A model generated the notes under the pieces. The model made no database searches and had not been told where the DNA came from. It saw nothing but the letters and a program-made list of their open reading frames with translations. Shown piece by piece: positions 6,196 to 55,952 of a DNA stretch of 64,000 nt. Location of the stretch: assembly GCF_001427985.1 (NCBI RefSeq), contig NZ_LMSA01000007.1, positions 1 through 64,000 of the forward strand, given 5' to 3'. Made by a program: the position numbers and the translations under genes. How positions within the stretch are numbered: position 1 is the first letter of the stretch; each line of letters begins with the position of its first letter. The stretch is from Knoellia sp. Soil729 (lineage in GTDB: Bacteria; Actinomycetota; Actinomycetes; Actinomycetales; Dermatophilaceae).

Positions 6196-6999
6196 TCAGG
6201 CCGACTTCTGGCCGAGCCACACGGCAGCGGCGACGAGGAGACCGAGTCCGAAGAACCAGGCGAACCAGCCTTCGGTGACCGGGCCGAGGGAGCCCAGGGC
6301 GTGCCCACCCTGCTGCGGAGCCTCGTCGATGGCCGTGAGGAACGCGATGATGTCGCGCTTGTCCTTGGGCTCGATGTTGTTGTCGTTGAACACCGGCATC
6401 GACTGCGGCCCGGTGTCCATGGCCTCGAAGATGTGCTTGGGCTCGACCCCCATGAGGGAGGGCGCGTACTTGCCGCGGGTCAGGGCGCCACCAGCGCCCG
6501 CGGCGTTGTGGCACATGGCGCAGTTGACGCGGAAGAGCTCGCCACCCGCGCCCGGGTCACCCTTGGTGGGGTCCACGTCCTCTTCGGAGGGCACGGCCGG
6601 CCCGGGAGCCAGCGACGCGATGTAGGCGGCGACCTGGTCGATCTCCTTCTGGCTGAACTGCACGTCACCGCGCTCGGCCTGGATGCCCGGTTCGCGCAGG
6701 GGCATGCGTCCGGTGCCCATCTGGAAGTCGACGGCTGCTGCGCCCACACCCGCGAGGGCGGGTCCGGCGATCTTGTCGCCGTTGCCCGTGACGCGCCCCT
6801 CGGCGTTGACACCGTGGCACGAGGCGCAGTTGGCGAGGAAGAGCTGCTTGCCTGCGGTGACGTCCTGCGCGGTGCTCGACTCTGCCTGTGCGGGCTGCGG
6901 GGCGACCGCTGCGTAGGCGAAGCCGGTCACGAGGAGGCCCAGCATGAGCAGGATGGCGATCGCTGCCGGGTGGCGGCGGCGGGCGGCCAGTGCGTTCAC
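6196..6999 (-). CDS. qcrC: Diheme cytochrome c subunit of cytochrome bc1
   Basis: A 267-residue membrane-anchored cytochrome cc. An N-terminal signal/anchor (about residues 12-33) is followed by two heme c domains with CASCH (58-62) and CAMCH (160-164). A C-terminal membrane helix follows (about 244-264). Two heme domains in one polypeptide are typical of actinobacteria, where QcrC replaces soluble cytochrome c and passes electrons directly to the aa3 oxidase. It starts with GTG at 6999 and follows ctaE by 75 bases in the same operon. Confidence 0.97.
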   Translation of the reverse strand: MNALAARRRHPAAIAILLMLGLLVTGFAYAAVAPQPAQAESSTAQDVTAGKQLFLANCASCHGVNAEGRVTGNGDKIAGPALAGVGAAAVDFQMGTGRMPLREPGIQAERGDVQFSQKEIDQVAAYIASLAPGPAVPSEEDVDPTKGDPGAGGELFRVNCAMCHNAAGAGGALTRGKYAPSLMGVEPKHIFEAMDTGPQSMPVFNDNNIEPKDKRDIIAFLTAIDEAPQQGGHALGSLGPVTEGWFAWFFGLGLLVAAAVWLGQKSA

Positions 7000-8289: not shown

Positions 8290-9363
8290 GTGGCGGCCAC
8301 GGCACCGTCGGGTCTCCCGACGTGGCCCGACCTCCTGACCCTCCTCCTCGCCCACGAGGACCTCTCGCTCGAGCAGTCCCGCTGGGCCATGACCCGCATC
8401 ATGGGCGGCGAGGCGACTCCTGCCCAGGTGGCCGGCTTCCTCGTGGCGCTGCGCTCCAAGGTCGAGTCCGTCGCCGAGGTGCGTGGCCTTGCCGACGTCA
8501 TGCTCGAACACGCCCACCGCATCGAGGTGCCGGGCGAGAGCATCGACATCGTGGGCACCGGTGGTGACCGCTTCGGGACCGTGAACATCTCGACGATGTC
8601 GTCGGTCGTCATCGCCTCGACGGGGTTGCGCGTCGTGAAGCACGGCAACCGGGCCGCGTCGTCGAAGTCGGGCTCCGCCGACGTCCTCGAGTCCCTCGGG
8701 GTCAACCTCACCCTCACCCCTGCACAGGTGCGCCAGGTGGCTCTCGACGCGGGCATCACCTTCTGCTTCGCCCAGACCTTCCACCCCTCGATGCGTCACG
8801 CGGGGCCGGCGCGCGCCGAGTTGGGTGTGGGGACGGCCTTCAACCTTCTCGGACCGCTCACCAACCCGGCACAGCCCACGTATGCCGCGGTCGGTGTCGC
8901 GGACGTCCGTTTCCTCCCGATTCTCGCCGGTGTGTTCGCCGACCGGGGCCAGTCGGCTGCGGTCTTCCGTGGGGACGAGGGCCTGGACGAGATGTCGATT
9001 GCCGGCCCCACGACGCTCCTGTGGGTGCGTGACGGCGCGATCACCGAGGTCTCGGTGAGTCCCTCGGACGTCGGACTGGACGTCTCGGCGATCGACAGCA
9101 TCAAGGGCGGCCTCGCCGACGAGAACGCGGAGGTGGCCCGACGCGTGTTCGCCGGTGACCTCGGGCCGGCGCGTGACGCCGTCCTGCTCAACGCCGGGAC
9201 GGCGCTGGCCGTCGGCTCCGGGGCGCTCGACACCTCGGCAGAGGCGATCATCGACGCCATCCGTCGCGGCATGGAGCGGGCCGCCGCGGCCATCGACTCC
9301 GGCGACGCGGCAGGCCTGCTCGACCGGTGGGTCGCGGCGAGCCGCGACGTCGCCGGGGGCTGA
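8290..9363 (+). CDS. trpD: Anthranilate phosphoribosyltransferase
   Basis: A 357-residue enzyme that joins anthranilate and PRPP in tryptophan synthesis. The PRPP-binding motif GTGGD (89-93) with GTVNIST, the KHGNRAASSKSGSADVLESLG segment and the metal site DE in RGDEGLDEMS are all present. Length matches the family. GTG 8290 begins one base after the upstream stop, so it is translationally coupled to the receiver-like gene. As in M. tuberculosis, trpD stands alone here, next to respiratory genes rather than in a trp operon. Confidence 0.97.
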   Translation: MAATAPSGLPTWPDLLTLLLAHEDLSLEQSRWAMTRIMGGEATPAQVAGFLVALRSKVESVAEVRGLADVMLEHAHRIEVPGESIDIVGTGGDRFGTVNISTMSSVVIASTGLRVVKHGNRAASSKSGSADVLESLGVNLTLTPAQVRQVALDAGITFCFAQTFHPSMRHAGPARAELGVGTAFNLLGPLTNPAQPTYAAVGVADVRFLPILAGVFADRGQSAAVFRGDEGLDEMSIAGPTTLLWVRDGAITEVSVSPSDVGLDVSAIDSIKGGLADENAEVARRVFAGDLGPARDAVLLNAGTALAVGSGALDTSAEAIIDAIRRGMERAAAAIDSGDAAGLLDRWVAASRDVAGG

Positions 9364-27927: not shown

Positions 27928-27988
27928 ACTGATTGCCCGTTCGGCCAGTGGCTCGCTGCGCTCGCGACTGGCCGAACGGGCAATCAGT
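27928..27988. repeat. Palindromic repeat, copy 1 of a three-copy family
   Basis: Perfect 22-bp arms (27928-27949 and 27967-27988) enclose a 17-base loop, GGCTCGCTGCGCTCGCG. The arm carries the family core TTGCCCGTTCGG. It lies between convergent genes, so termination in both directions is possible. Copies 2 and 3 are at 36674-36738 and 55888-55952. Confidence 0.9.
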
Positions 27989-35825: not shown

Positions 35826-35841
35826 TAGAACAAGTGTTCGA
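35826..35841 (+). promoter_or_regulatory. SOS box (LexA site) upstream of the dnaE2 cassette
   Basis: TAGAACAAGTGTTCGA matches the mycobacterial LexA consensus TCGAAC-N4-GTTCGA at 11 of 12 fixed positions. It lies about 65 bases before the DUF6504 gene, just after possible promoter elements (TTGACG at 35788, TACAGT at 35813), where LexA would block RNA polymerase. Confidence 0.82.
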
Positions 35842-36229: not shown

Positions 36230-36649
36230 ATGGGTGCCGCTCCCGCTCTCGCCCTCCTCGAGCAGTCCCGCCAGTGCCTTGCCGACGCGTATGCCGCGGA
36301 GCTGGCTGCCGCTCGTTTCGTCGCCTCCCAGGACGCCGCGATGCGGGCCGCCGCGGCCCTCGTCGCCGGTCAGCGAGGACCCGGCAGGCGCGGTCGCGGT
36401 TCGTACCAGGACCTCTGGCCGCTCCTTGCCGCCCATGCTCCCGAGCTCGGTGAGTGGGCCGACTTCTTCGCGCTCGCGGCAGTGCGCCGGCACGAGGTCG
36501 AGTCGCACACGGTCCGGGTGTCGGTGCGCGAGGCCGACGACCTGCTGCGTGCCGCCGAGACCTTCGTCGAAGCGGTCACCGTCGCCCTGGGTGTGCCGCG
36601 GGCCGAGCGAGCGGCACGCCGCCTCGCCGCCACCCGGGGGACGGCATGA
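36230..36649 (+). CDS. SAV_6107-family HEPN-like protein
   Basis: A 139-residue all-helical protein of the HEPN type linked to dnaE2. An opening helix ALLEQSRQCLADAYAAE is followed by QDLWPLLAAHAPELGEWADFFALAA and a closing helix in DDLLRAAETFVEAVTVALG. HEPN folds often act as RNases, but no clear RxxxxH catalytic motif is seen; the Arg/His of AAVRRHEVESHTV is the nearest. The recurring gene order DUF6504-this protein-dnaE2 suggests an accessory role in translesion synthesis (inference). ATG 36230 is six bases after the DUF6504 stop. Confidence 0.85.
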   Translation: MGAAPALALLEQSRQCLADAYAAELAAARFVASQDAAMRAAAALVAGQRGPGRRGRGSYQDLWPLLAAHAPELGEWADFFALAAVRRHEVESHTVRVSVREADDLLRAAETFVEAVTVALGVPRAERAARRLAATRGTA

Positions 36650-36673
36650 GTGGCGCCGGAAGACGTCCAGAAC

Positions 36674-36738
36674 CGACTGATTGCCCGTTCGGGCAGTTCA
36701 TCGCTGCGCTCCTCACTGTCCGAACGGGCAATCAGTCG
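36674..36738. repeat. Palindromic repeat, copy 2, between the HEPN gene and dnaE2
   Basis: 24-bp arms (36674-36697 and 36715-36738) pair completely apart from one G-T wobble. The loop is 17 bases, TCATCGCTGCGCTCCTC. It shares the core ACTGATTGCCCGTTCGG with copy 1. It fills most of the 108 bases between the HEPN stop and the dnaE2 start. Confidence 0.9.
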
Positions 36739-36757
36739 AGGTTGGGTCGTGGTGGGT

Positions 36758-39700
36758 ATGACCGGTGACTTCGTGCACCTGCACGTGGCCTCGGGCTACT
36801 CGATGCGGTTCGGGGCGTCGACCCCGCAGGACCTCGTCGAGCGCGCCGCCGCCGATGGGCAGCCCGCCCTTGCCCTCACCGACCGCGACGGCCTCTATGG
36901 CGCGGTGCGGTTCGCGATGGCCTGCGGCCGGGCGGGCCTGAACCCGATCCTCGGTGTCGACCTCGCCGTCGGTGAGGAGCCGGTGCCCGGACGCCGCCCA
37001 CCCAGGGTCCGCACCCCGGTGCGCGGTGGCGCGGTCGTCGACCCCCGGCTCCCGCGGGTCACCGTCCTGGCGCGCGGTCGCGCGGCCGGTGTCGACCGGG
37101 CGCTCGGCTGGGCGGCCCTGTGCCGGCTCGTCACCGACACCCACCTGCGCGGCGAGCGCGGCACCCCGGTCACCCTGCCCGACCTCATCGCCCGCTGGTG
37201 TCGCGGCGGCGACTCTGACCCCGCAGACCGTGCATTTCTCGCCCAATTCCCCCCAAATGAACAGACACCGCGTGTGCATTTGGGGGGAATTGGGCGAGAA
37301 ATGCACGCAGGGGGAGGGCCGAGCCGGTTGCGGGTGCTGCTCGGACCCGACTCCGACGTGGGACGGGCGCTGCTCGCTCGTCGCCCCACCGAGGCCCGGG
37401 CCCGGCTCGAGAGGTGGCGGGCGCTCCTGCCGCCGGACGCCCTCGCCATCGAGGTCGTGGGCAACGGTGGTCCCGAGGGCACTGCGGGCTCCCGGGTCCA
37501 TGCCCGTCACCTGCTCGGCCTCGCCGACGAGGTCCGGGTGCCGGCCGTCCTCACCGCGGCGGTGCGCCACGCCGACCGTGACGGGGTGCGCACCGTTGAC
37601 GTCCTCGACGCCGCTCGCCGTCTCGTGGTCCTCGACTCCCGCCACCTCGACCGGGTCACCGACGCCGGCCACCTCGCGAGCAGTGAGGAGATGTGGCTGC
37701 GGGCCCTCGAGATCACCGGGGACAACGCACGCGCCGCCCGGCTTCTCGGTACCACCCTCGCCCTGGCCGACGAGTGCGTCCAGGATGCCCGGGCGGACCT
37801 CGGCATCGGCGCCGTGCACCTGCCCGAACCGAGCATCCTGGGCATCGAGGCCGGGGTGGACCCGCAGCAGGTCCTCACCGAGCGGTGTCGAGCCGGGGTC
37901 CACACGAGGTTCCCGGTGCTGGGAGACGCGGCACGGCATACGGTGCTGTCGCGCCTGGACGACGAGCTGCGCGTCATCGCGGACCTGGGGTACCCGACGT
38001 ACTTCCTCACCGTCGCGGAGGTGACCGACCTCATCAAGGACAGGGGAGTGCGGGTCGCGGCTCGCGGCTCGGGGGCCGGGTCGCTCGTCAACTACCTGCT
38101 CGGCATCAGTGGCGTCGACCCGATCCGCCACGACCTGCTCATGGAGCGGTTCTGCTCGCCGCTGCGTGCCGAGCTGCCCGACATCGACATCGACGTGGAG
38201 TCGGCGCGGCGGACCGAGATCTACGAGGCGATCCTCGACCGCTTCGGGGGAGACCGGGTGACGTGCGTGTCGATGATGGACACCTACAAGGTGCGGCACG
38301 CCATCCGTGACGTCGGTGCCGCGCTCGGGATGCCGCCCGTCGAGGTCGACGAGATCGCCAAGGCGTTCCCGCACATCCGGGCCAAGGATGCCCGCAGTGC
38401 GATCGCCGACCTGCCCGAGCTGCGTTCTCGCGGACTGGATGCACCGCGTCTGGACACCTTCTTCGACCTGGTCGAGCGGCTCGACGGGCTGCCCCGGCAC
38501 ATCGCGCTGCACCCGTGCGGAGTCGTGCTGTCCAACGCCGGCCTGCTCGACCGCACCCCGGTCGAGGCGAGCTGGCTCGGCTTCCCCATGAGCCACTTCG
38601 ACAAGGACGACGTCGAGACGCTCGGGCTGCTCAAGCTCGACGTCCTCGGCATCCGCATGCAGTCGGCGATGGCGCACGCCGTCACCGAGGTGCGCCGGGT
38701 CGATGGGGTCGACGTCGACCTGGACGACGAGGCGCAGGTGCCGCTCGACGACGAGGCGACCTTCCGGCTCATCCGCTCGACCCACACCCTGGGGTGCTTC
38801 CAGATCGAGAGCCCGGGGCAGCGCGAGCTCATCGGCAAGTTCGGACCCGAACGGTTCGGCGACCTCATCATCGACATCTCGCTCTTCCGGCCCGGACCGG
38901 TGAAGTCCGACATGATCCGGCCCTTCCTCGAGAGCCGGCACGGCTGGTCCAAGCCGCAGCTGCTCCACCCGACGCTCGTGCCGGCCCTCGCCGAGACCGA
39001 GGGCGTCGTCGTCTTCCACGAGCAGGTCCTGCGGATCGTCGCCGAGACCACGGGGGTCACCCTCGCCCAGGCGGACGAGGTGCGGCGCACGATGGGTTCA
39101 CCCCAGGGGCAGGAGGAGATCGAGCAGTGGTGGCGTCCCGCGGCCCGGGCGCGAGGGTACTCACCCGACGACGTGGACCAGATCTGGGCCGTGCTCAAGT
39201 CCTTCGCGTCCTTCGGTTTCTGCAAGGCGCATGCGGCGGCGTTCGCGCTGCCGACCTACCACTCCGCCTGGCTCAAGACCCACCACCCCGCGGCCTTCCT
39301 CGCGGGTGTCCTCACCCACGACCCGGGCATGTATCCCAAACGGCTCATCCTCGACGACGCCCGGTCCCTGGGCATCGCCGTCCTCGGGCTCGACGTCAAC
39401 GCCTCGGGTGACACCTACCGCATCGAGCGGCTCGAGGGTCGTGCCGACGGGAGGGAGCCGGCCTTCACTCCAGTGCACCCTGACCTGCCCGACGCCAGCG
39501 ACTACGGCATCCGGCTCTCACTCACCGACGTCAAGGGGATCAGCGACGCCGAAGTCGCGAGTATCGTTGCAGGACAGCCGTTCTCGAACCTCGCTGATTT
39601 CTGGTCCCGGGCCACCGTGAGCCGGCCAGTCGTCGAGCGGCTCGTCCTCGCCGGGGCGTTCGACTCCATGCACGGCATCGGGGTCTCGGGTTCGGGGCTG

Positions 39701-40657
39701 GGTCGGCGCGGCCGCATCACCCGCCGCGACCTGCTCCTCCACGTCAGTGAGCTCGACCGGTGGGAGAAGGCGACCCGGGGCGGTCGGGCCGGGCGAAGCC
39801 TCGGGGGCGGACGGCATACGCCACCGCCGTCGATCCGGGGGAGCGAGGTGCGCGAACGGGCCGCAGCCCAGTCGCAGGGTGCGCGCCCTGTCGTCGCCGC
39901 CGAGGACCAGCCGGTCCAGCTCACCCTCGACCTCGGTGACCGGCCCGAGCTCACCCCCGGCGCCGGGCTGCCCGAGATGACCGGCACCGAGCGGGTGCGT
40001 GCCGAGCTCGACGTCCTCGGGCTCGACGCGTCAGCGCACGTCGTCGAGTTCTACGGTCCGATGCTCGACGCCCTGGGTGTGGTCCGCAGCCGGGACCTGC
40101 TCCGCTCGCGCAGCAACAGCGAGGTCTGGATCGCTGGGGTCAAGGTCGCGACGCAGACTCCGCCCATCCGTTCGGGTCGCCGCGTCGTCTTCCTCACCCT
40201 CGACGACGCGACCGGTCCCGTCGACGCCACCTTCTTCGAGGACGTCCAGGGCCCGTATGCCGCAACGATCTTCCATTCCTGGCTGCTGCTGGTGCGTGGT
40301 GTCGTTCGTCGTACCGGTCCTCGCGGGATCTCGATCCGGGCGACCGGTGCCTGGGAGCTCGCCGGCCTGTGGGAGGCATGGCGCGACGGTGGTCATGCCG
40401 CGGTGGTGCGGGCCCTCGAGGACGCCGACGCCGAGGCGACCGCCCGGGCCGCGGCGGGGGAGCGGGAGGCCGACACCGGTGGGAAGCGAAGGGTGCTCGT
40501 GCACGCGTCGGGCTTCAGGCAGTCGCCCTACGCCGACATCAAGCCGGCCGGAGGCTCGACCCGCAACGGTCATTCCGTGGCACCGCTGGCCGTCCCCGAG
40601 CATGGGACACCGTCGCGCAAGCTCTGGCACTCGAGCCCCGGCAGCTCCGGCCACTGA
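36758..40657 (+). CDS. dnaE2: Error-prone DNA polymerase III alpha subunit
   Basis: A 1299-residue translesion polymerase, longer than the usual ~1080. The PHP domain starts FVHLHVASGYSMRFGAS with TDRDGLYGAV. Palm motifs include RGSGAGSLVNYLLG and the catalytic PDIDIDVES (near residue 473). GFCKAHAAAFALPTYHSAWLK and an OB fold (VWIAGVKVATQTPP) follow. The end SRKLWHSSPGSSGH is typical of DnaE2. Residues ~158-184 are encoded by an inserted palindrome and have no counterpart in M. tuberculosis DnaE2. ATG 36758 begins MTGDFVHLHV. It is third behind the SOS box, and imuA'/imuB are absent. Confidence 0.93.
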   Translation: MTGDFVHLHVASGYSMRFGASTPQDLVERAAADGQPALALTDRDGLYGAVRFAMACGRAGLNPILGVDLAVGEEPVPGRRPPRVRTPVRGGAVVDPRLPRVTVLARGRAAGVDRALGWAALCRLVTDTHLRGERGTPVTLPDLIARWCRGGDSDPADRAFLAQFPPNEQTPRVHLGGIGREMHAGGGPSRLRVLLGPDSDVGRALLARRPTEARARLERWRALLPPDALAIEVVGNGGPEGTAGSRVHARHLLGLADEVRVPAVLTAAVRHADRDGVRTVDVLDAARRLVVLDSRHLDRVTDAGHLASSEEMWLRALEITGDNARAARLLGTTLALADECVQDARADLGIGAVHLPEPSILGIEAGVDPQQVLTERCRAGVHTRFPVLGDAARHTVLSRLDDELRVIADLGYPTYFLTVAEVTDLIKDRGVRVAARGSGAGSLVNYLLGISGVDPIRHDLLMERFCSPLRAELPDIDIDVESARRTEIYEAILDRFGGDRVTCVSMMDTYKVRHAIRDVGAALGMPPVEVDEIAKAFPHIRAKDARSAIADLPELRSRGLDAPRLDTFFDLVERLDGLPRHIALHPCGVVLSNAGLLDRTPVEASWLGFPMSHFDKDDVETLGLLKLDVLGIRMQSAMAHAVTEVRRVDGVDVDLDDEAQVPLDDEATFRLIRSTHTLGCFQIESPGQRELIGKFGPERFGDLIIDISLFRPGPVKSDMIRPFLESRHGWSKPQLLHPTLVPALAETEGVVVFHEQVLRIVAETTGVTLAQADEVRRTMGSPQGQEEIEQWWRPAARARGYSPDDVDQIWAVLKSFASFGFCKAHAAAFALPTYHSAWLKTHHPAAFLAGVLTHDPGMYPKRLILDDARSLGIAVLGLDVNASGDTYRIERLEGRADGREPAFTPVHPDLPDASDYGIRLSLTDVKGISDAEVASIVAGQPFSNLADFWSRATVSRPVVERLVLAGAFDSMHGIGVSGSGLGRRGRITRRDLLLHVSELDRWEKATRGGRAGRSLGGGRHTPPPSIRGSEVRERAAAQSQGARPVVAAEDQPVQLTLDLGDRPELTPGAGLPEMTGTERVRAELDVLGLDASAHVVEFYGPMLDALGVVRSRDLLRSRSNSEVWIAGVKVATQTPPIRSGRRVVFLTLDDATGPVDATFFEDVQGPYAATIFHSWLLLVRGVVRRTGPRGISIRATGAWELAGLWEAWRDGGHAAVVRALEDADAEATARAAAGEREADTGGKRRVLVHASGFRQSPYADIKPAGGSTRNGHSVAPLAVPEHGTPSRKLWHSSPGSSGH
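37229..37307. repeat. Perfect 31-bp inverted repeat inside dnaE2
   Basis: Arms 37229-37259 and 37277-37307 are exact reverse complements (left arm begins CGTGCATTTCTCGCCC) around a 17-base loop AACAGACACCGCGTGTG. It is much more AT-rich than its surroundings and keeps the reading frame open. Confidence 0.97.
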
Positions 40658-55887: not shown

Positions 55888-55952
55888 CGACTTATTGCCC
55901 GTTTGGCCAGTTGCGAGGGCAGCGAGCCACTGGCCAAACGGGCAATAAGTCG
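55888..55952. repeat. Palindromic repeat, copy 3
   Basis: Perfect 24-bp arms (55888-55911 and 55929-55952) around a 17-base loop. The reverse strand reads almost like copy 1 (loop GGCTCGCTGCCCTCGCA), with paired C-to-T and G-to-A changes in both arms that preserve the stem. It lies between the parC stop and the aglE promoter region. Confidence 0.92.

Follow-up and report, generated by a model that had tools for sequence, protein, structure and literature searches.

A palindrome in the dnaE2 gene of Knoellia as a probable copy of a dispersed REP/RPE-like repeat in a variable linker

Background

The palindromic elements of Rickettsia (RPE) were reportedly the subject of studies by Ogata in 2000 and 2002. 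A part of PMC10969869 describes them as palindromic repeats situated in frame in unrelated genes. According to sections of Di Nocera, De Gregorio and Rocco 2013 (PMC3733652), REPs of the GTAG and CGTC super-families also occur within genes, that of DnaE2 among them, over half of these intragenic REPs are dimers or groups encoding 20-30 residues, and recB of two Xanthomonas has a REP at about the same site; a role in hypermutation for REPs in repair genes is offered there as speculation. Long perfect inverted repeats in working protein genes are also described, in a part of PMC6649704, as the coding palindromes of Nematomorpha mitochondria.

So far, REPs and RPEs within genes have been catalogued per species, and in those sections of PMC3733652 a shared protein site is noted for recB alone. 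The genus Knoellia, with nine genomes, offers both filled and empty states at a site in dnaE2 and a site in tilS, and it thus allows us to ask whether a small number of permissive loops merely let repeats persist or actually attract them.

Results

The palindrome in dnaE2

The window analyzed here is the whole stretch of 64,000 nucleotides from Knoellia sp. Soil729, whose 3.6-Mb genome is denoted G000; other G numbers are comparison genomes. The features of the dnaE2 region are as follows.

36674..36738, no strand assigned: second palindrome ("A family"), 19 bp ahead of the dnaE2 start codon
36758..40657, + strand: dnaE2, error-prone DNA polymerase III alpha-type subunit, 1299 aa (Pfam, NCBIfam and homology)
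37229..37307, no strand assigned: palindromic element ("B family"), DnaE2 residues 158-184
37229..37259, + strand: left arm, 31 bp, from the inverted-repeat geometry
37241, no strand assigned: G pairing with C37295; A at this spot in other matched arm cores
37260..37276, + strand: loop, 17 nt, a GACAC..GTGT stretch similar in several other copies
37277..37307, - strand: right arm, 31 bp, fully complementary to the left arm
37295..37297, + strand: codon 180, CGA, where the family sequence GGGTGAG would give TGA (stop) in the dnaE2 frame

The start ATG at 36758 was picked by homology, and the stop is at 40657. The protein has the Pfam domains PHP, DNA_pol3_alpha, finger, HHH_6 and OB fold; its top NCBIfam model, "error-prone DNA polymerase", scores 609 bits, under the cut-off of 939. 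The palindrome lies in the N-terminal part, in a linker between the conserved motifs RW(C/S)RGG and RLRVLLGPDSDVG. A structure model of DnaE2 (mean pLDDT 38) was too poor for judging the flexibility of this linker. Downstream of it, dN/dS in five comparisons is 0.08-0.13; this part of the gene is under purifying selection, and dnaE2 thus appears functional with its insert.

A sequence-only reading of the region had described a perfect palindrome with 31-bp arms and a 17-base loop that is AT-richer than its surroundings and keeps the frame. All of this was borne out: the arms pair at 31 of 31 positions in 37229-37307, the element has a G+C content of 55.7% against 72.1% in the remaining dnaE2, and it lies inside the open 1299-aa frame. 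With one mismatch permitted, the arms grow to 35 bp and the loop shrinks to 9 nt. The RNA of positions 37220-37316 folds with -70.1 kcal/mol (z -11.6). In Rfam, positions 36400-37600 matched 12 microRNA precursor models and one snoRNA with E values up to 1, each of these 13 below its gathering score; a known structured RNA family was rejected on this ground.

The palindrome-encoded peptide is in frame and stop-free, as an ordinary coding sequence that is palindromic by chance would be. However, when the window was resampled 30 times with a first-order Markov model, the longest perfect arms reached 11-14 bp, against the 31 bp observed, and the element has dispersed copies in the genome. A chance origin, refuted on both counts, retains a next to negligible probability.

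Dispersed copies in the Knoellia genome

Further copies of the arm, for which the sequence-only reading had suggested a search, were indeed found. The palindrome stretch gave 29 matches within G000 (self and both strands counted), which correspond to about 16 separate places, some with half elements only; the count omits one weak 18-base match at C2:112727. Three of the 16 copies are in genes, namely dnaE2, an ABC exporter of 595 residues (C1:734229) and TilS (C2:656685). Both of the latter copies are in frame, and the one in TilS precedes the SGGGDS loop. Among the 15 copies other than that in dnaE2, 12 are at most 30 bp from where a likely coding frame ends and six lie between convergent likely coding frames. 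Alignment of 11 copies, including that of the window, gave the common core TTTCTC(A/G)CC(C)AATTCCC and its complement, and a composed 79-base query found matches in three of 58 genomes, each of the genus Knoellia.

A survey covering the window and 20 further stretches of G000, 464 kb in all, found 36 palindromes with a score of at least 14 and 22 with a score of at least 16. By a codon-position test, one of these 22 is in a gene, the dnaE2 copy. Copies close to the start of a protein can escape this test, as did the TilS copy, so that in-gene counts are lower bounds.

Over the 31 arm pairs, 89% of the cells in the aligned copies are paired. Joint change of the arms exceeds that in shuffles for two measures, the observed covariation score being reached by three of 500 shuffles and the number of cells changed on both sides by seven of 500; it does not for pairs changed on both sides (96/500), further pair types (137/500) and cells paired (30/500). 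Only seven of 26 repeat units have a terminal stem of at least 6 bp, and the reading of the element as an inverted dimer is therefore a loose one.

Some half elements occur near one another, single or directly repeated, in the stretch L018 (around 1282, 6875-6990 and 8676-8787), some of them beside a GCCGGTATGCCG-like motif; the cluster is at C1:575-583 kb. A third palindrome family in G000 is seen at L211:6876-6950 and L217:13023-13087, with an arm that by eye is like that of the dnaE2 hairpin of G029 described below.

A MITE would have terminal inverted repeats with a target-site duplication and a parent transposon. The B-family elements have inverted repeats, but inspection by eye of the dnaE2 and TilS sites revealed no duplication of the target, nor did it show an unpaired GTAG or CGTC tag at the ends of the units in the aligned copies. 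A search of G000 for the Y1 tyrosine transposase domain PF01797 gave no matches, the same search being positive in five of 14 control genomes; a RAYT-driven REP was rejected on the absence of PF01797 from G000.

Codon 180 and the stop-free variant

The dnaE2 copy differs from the family sequence both in the base that avoids the stop at codon 180 and in its pairing partner. Among the 24 arm cores of G000 that match the search pattern, 22 carry A and two carry G, the latter being the left and right arms of the dnaE2 copy. The G version of the core is also present in copies of G001 and G003, which suggests a filter for stop-free copies and not a repair after insertion; stop-codon repair in dnaE2 is accordingly not claimed. 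Judging by the sequences of these copies, the stop-free variant may simply be the one able to insert in dnaE2.

The dnaE2 linker in related genomes

Our sample of dnaE2 comprised 109 genomes, five of them from other families and 104 drawn from the 145 matching family genomes. The linker was placed in 107 of them, leaving out G191 and G094; in these it is 3 to 183 nt long, with 1-61 residues in other genera. The 48 linkers of at least 40 nt were tested for palindromes against 300 dinucleotide shuffles each, the 59 shorter ones being outside the test. Six linkers beat all 300 shuffles (G000, G005, G006, G007, G029 and G082). The other 42 fall short of this, including six at p 0.01-0.02 (G024, G196, G001, G171, G071 and G015). 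The linkers of G024, G071, G087 and G181, all from other genera, contain short tandem peptide repeats.

Strong linker palindromes are present in four of nine Knoellia: that of G000 is of the B family, and those of G005, G006 and G007 form a CGACTT family. The arms are CGTGCATTTCTCGCCC in G000, CGACTT(T/C)(G/T)TGCCCC in G005-G007 and GACAGTCGAAAGTAGA in G029. The five remaining Knoellia have a short linker and no strong palindrome; it is of one kind, with 10 or 11 residues, in G001, G003, G004 and G008, and has eight residues in G002. No Knoellia was seen to encode the residues of the G000 element in a non-palindromic sequence, since each of the other eight has a short linker or else another palindrome.

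The G007 and G029 palindromes are likewise dispersed in their own genomes. The G007 hairpin has 88 matches in G007, 12-23 in each of G004, G005, G006 and G008 and one in G003, and no match in G000, G001, G002 or G029; among the best of the 88 matches, none of 18 other copies passes the codon-position test on both sides. The G029 hairpin has 30 matches in G029 and two in G000, and none in eight further genomes searched. The G082 linker has a hairpin of its own sequence, for which a copy search with a partly guessed query did not establish dispersal. The linker arm of G006 is one base from another G006 copy and five bases from the G007 arm. A tandem array in G007 (L179, C61:46673-47058) consists of the palindrome loop and right arm with 54-bp spacing, in six extra copies.

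The two Knoellia families and the third one in G029 amount to at least three entries into the dnaE2 linker. If the tree allows no losses, the sequences would imply three entries in Knoellia alone.

About 27 added residues had been proposed for the G000 element. This figure is right by comparison with five relatives, whose linkers have 8 to 11 residues, but not as a general measure, the linker length of the family being variable; that the element was inserted rests for this reason on its dispersal and not on length alone. The alignment of relatives, too, gave a mixed picture of presence and absence: five Knoellia have the short linker, whereas the other occupants are different palindromes with unlike flanks. 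The (E)RRxxWxxHP stretch of G001, G003, G004 and G008 is missing in all four palindrome-bearing Knoellia linkers, and dnaE2 is thus not a clean pair of empty and filled sites. The suggestion of a recent insertion is therefore retained in part: with a dispersed repeat and a short linker in five of nine Knoellia, in-frame insertion is the best reading, but the flanks are not preserved.

The TilS, ABC exporter and antiporter sites

TilS provides a parallel case. Palindromes with scores of 18-36 lie at one site, directly ahead of the ATP loop, in four of nine Knoellia (G000, G001, G003 and G007), and the site is empty, always at one length, in G002, G004, G005, G006 and G008. In the ABC exporter, the G001 palindrome is at the same position as that of G000. 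A NuoL/Mrp-type antiporter of G001 has an in-frame palindrome of the same kind (L239:2578-2635). The exporter site was covered in G000 and G001 and the antiporter site in G001; among ten G001 loci sampled, the codon-position test found an in-gene copy in two, these being the exporter and the antiporter. In-frame copies thus occur in unrelated genes, namely dnaE2, the ABC exporter and TilS in G000, and TilS, the ABC exporter and the antiporter in G001. The presence of such elements in TilS, the exporter and the antiporter argues against repair genes as special targets here.

Phylogeny of filled and empty sites

In the tree of dnaE2, built from the gene after the linker, G000, G006 and G003 form one group and G007 and G005 another, with G008, G001, G004 and G002 outside (supports 56-100). 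The TilS tree recovers both groups, G000/G003/G006 and G005/G007, at lower supports (55-98) and differs on G001, G004 and G008. Filled and empty species stand side by side on both trees. G003 lies inside a palindrome-bearing clade yet has a short dnaE2 linker, so that a single ancestral gain followed by loss through recombination is conceivable; a search for recombination at G003 in 100-bp windows gave no clear signal.

These trees bear on an explanation by one old, inherited insertion per site, in which gene conversion would homogenize the arms with the repeats of each species and empty species would represent losses. The joint changes of the arms among copies (3/500 shuffles for the covariation score, 7/500 for cells altered on both sides) are consistent with it, as is the sharing by G000 and G001 of two filled sites, TilS and the ABC exporter, with arms that follow each species' own family; for TilS, four gains are also about equal in event count to one gain and three losses. 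Repeated scarless loss, however, fits poorly with five empty TilS sites of equal length, that of the basal G002 among them, the occupants of dnaE2 come from different families and are not a product of within-family conversion, and two covariation measures are unremarkable (96/500 and 137/500). We regard old insertion as unlikely.

The region upstream of dnaE2

The A-family palindrome at 36674-36738 has 62 matches in the G000 genome. Further copies in the window are at 27928-27988 and 55888-55952, and a palindrome upstream of dnaE2 is also present in G005 and G007. At 35826-35841, upstream of the DUF6504, SAV_6107-like HEPN and dnaE2 frames, we noted TAGAACAAGTGTTCGA, which we take to be LexA-box-like, with one mismatch to the presumed consensus. 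LexA-like matches with at most three mismatches number 53 in the window against 29 expected. The three frames are perhaps an SOS gene cluster.

A palindrome could also be preferred or selected in the dnaE2 linker for tuning the error-prone polymerase or its synthesis. At least three entries by unrelated families into one linker, a very stable RNA hairpin, the second palindrome just upstream of dnaE2 in G000, G005 and G007, and the LexA-box-like site, one mismatch away from the consensus, upstream of the gene cluster would all suit such a role. So would the inclusion of DnaE2 among REP-carrying genes of other bacteria in sections of PMC3733652. On the other hand, the same kind of element sits in TilS, the ABC exporter and the Mrp/NuoL-type antiporter, and 42 of 48 tested linkers do not outdo all shuffles; we find this explanation distinctly improbable. 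RNA control or polymerase tuning by the dnaE2 palindrome is unsupported, and so is the earlier idea of a special RNA switch or cruciform site for dnaE2, in view of about 15 other places in G000, 12 of 15 near frame ends, and in-frame copies in other genes.

Discussion

The dnaE2 palindrome is probably a copy of a dispersed, non-autonomous REP/RPE-like repeat that is tolerated in a variable linker. A repeat of about 79 bp, roughly two units of about 34 nt in inverted orientation, would have been inserted between RW(C/S)RGG and RLRVLLGPDSDVG. Most copies are intergenic and near gene ends, and copies in genes would survive only with a flexible protein loop, an open frame and no stop read. Permissive sites would then be few, and one orthologous site could be filled repeatedly by repeat families that are unrelated to each other. 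Ribosomes would read through the hairpin, adding a disordered loop with little effect. We infer in this way the movement by insertion, the near neutrality of the element, the flexibility of the linker and the filter on survival.

Six occupied linkers are many when set against one of 22 strong palindromes in a gene in the 464-kb sample of G000, and this counts against mere tolerance. Certain linkers, that of DnaE2 above all, might be true docking sites, targeted or favoured when occupied and entered repeatedly by unrelated families. We hold this to be rather doubtful; if it were so, the error-prone polymerase gene would be altered repeatedly by the genome's own repeats. What is worth following is that unrelated families have used one linker repeatedly, and the locus also makes a clean case for asking whether a 31-bp perfect mRNA hairpin slows an error-prone polymerase gene.

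Intragenic REPs, with DnaE2 among their hosts, are already in print in the sections cited of PMC3733652. What is new are actinobacterial families that have no GTAG or CGTC tags, with the Y1 transposase not found in G000, and one codon region used repeatedly by unrelated palindrome families. Our search of the literature on Knoellia palindromes and on palindromes, repeats or insertions in dnaE2, in which subscription journals were thinly covered, found no report of this case. The dnaE2 palindrome family has no name in the REP and RPE literature covered, repeat databases being outside this comparison.

Comparison with known palindromic repeats

Like the GTAG and CGTC REPs in sections of PMC3733652, the Knoellia repeat is dispersed, mostly intergenic near gene 3' ends, and in part intragenic. 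It differs from them in having neither a GTAG or CGTC tag nor a PF01797 transposase in G000, in its arms of 20-36 bp compared with stems of 5-13 (Table 1 of PMC3733652), in its actinobacterial host and in the unrelated families found in one linker, features set here against those same sections. Its copy number, about 16 places in G000, is low for a typical REP.

With the RPE, as described in part of PMC10969869, the Knoellia copies share an in-frame location in unrelated protein genes, a likeness of description and not of sequence. However, an RPE is about 150 bp in size and the Knoellia element about 79 bp, and 13 of 16 Knoellia copies were not found in genes. The Nematomorpha coding palindromes in the relevant part of PMC6649704 likewise place a long perfect inverted repeat within a working protein gene; their arms encode conserved regions, whereas those of the Knoellia palindrome encode a variable linker and belong to a dispersed repeat.
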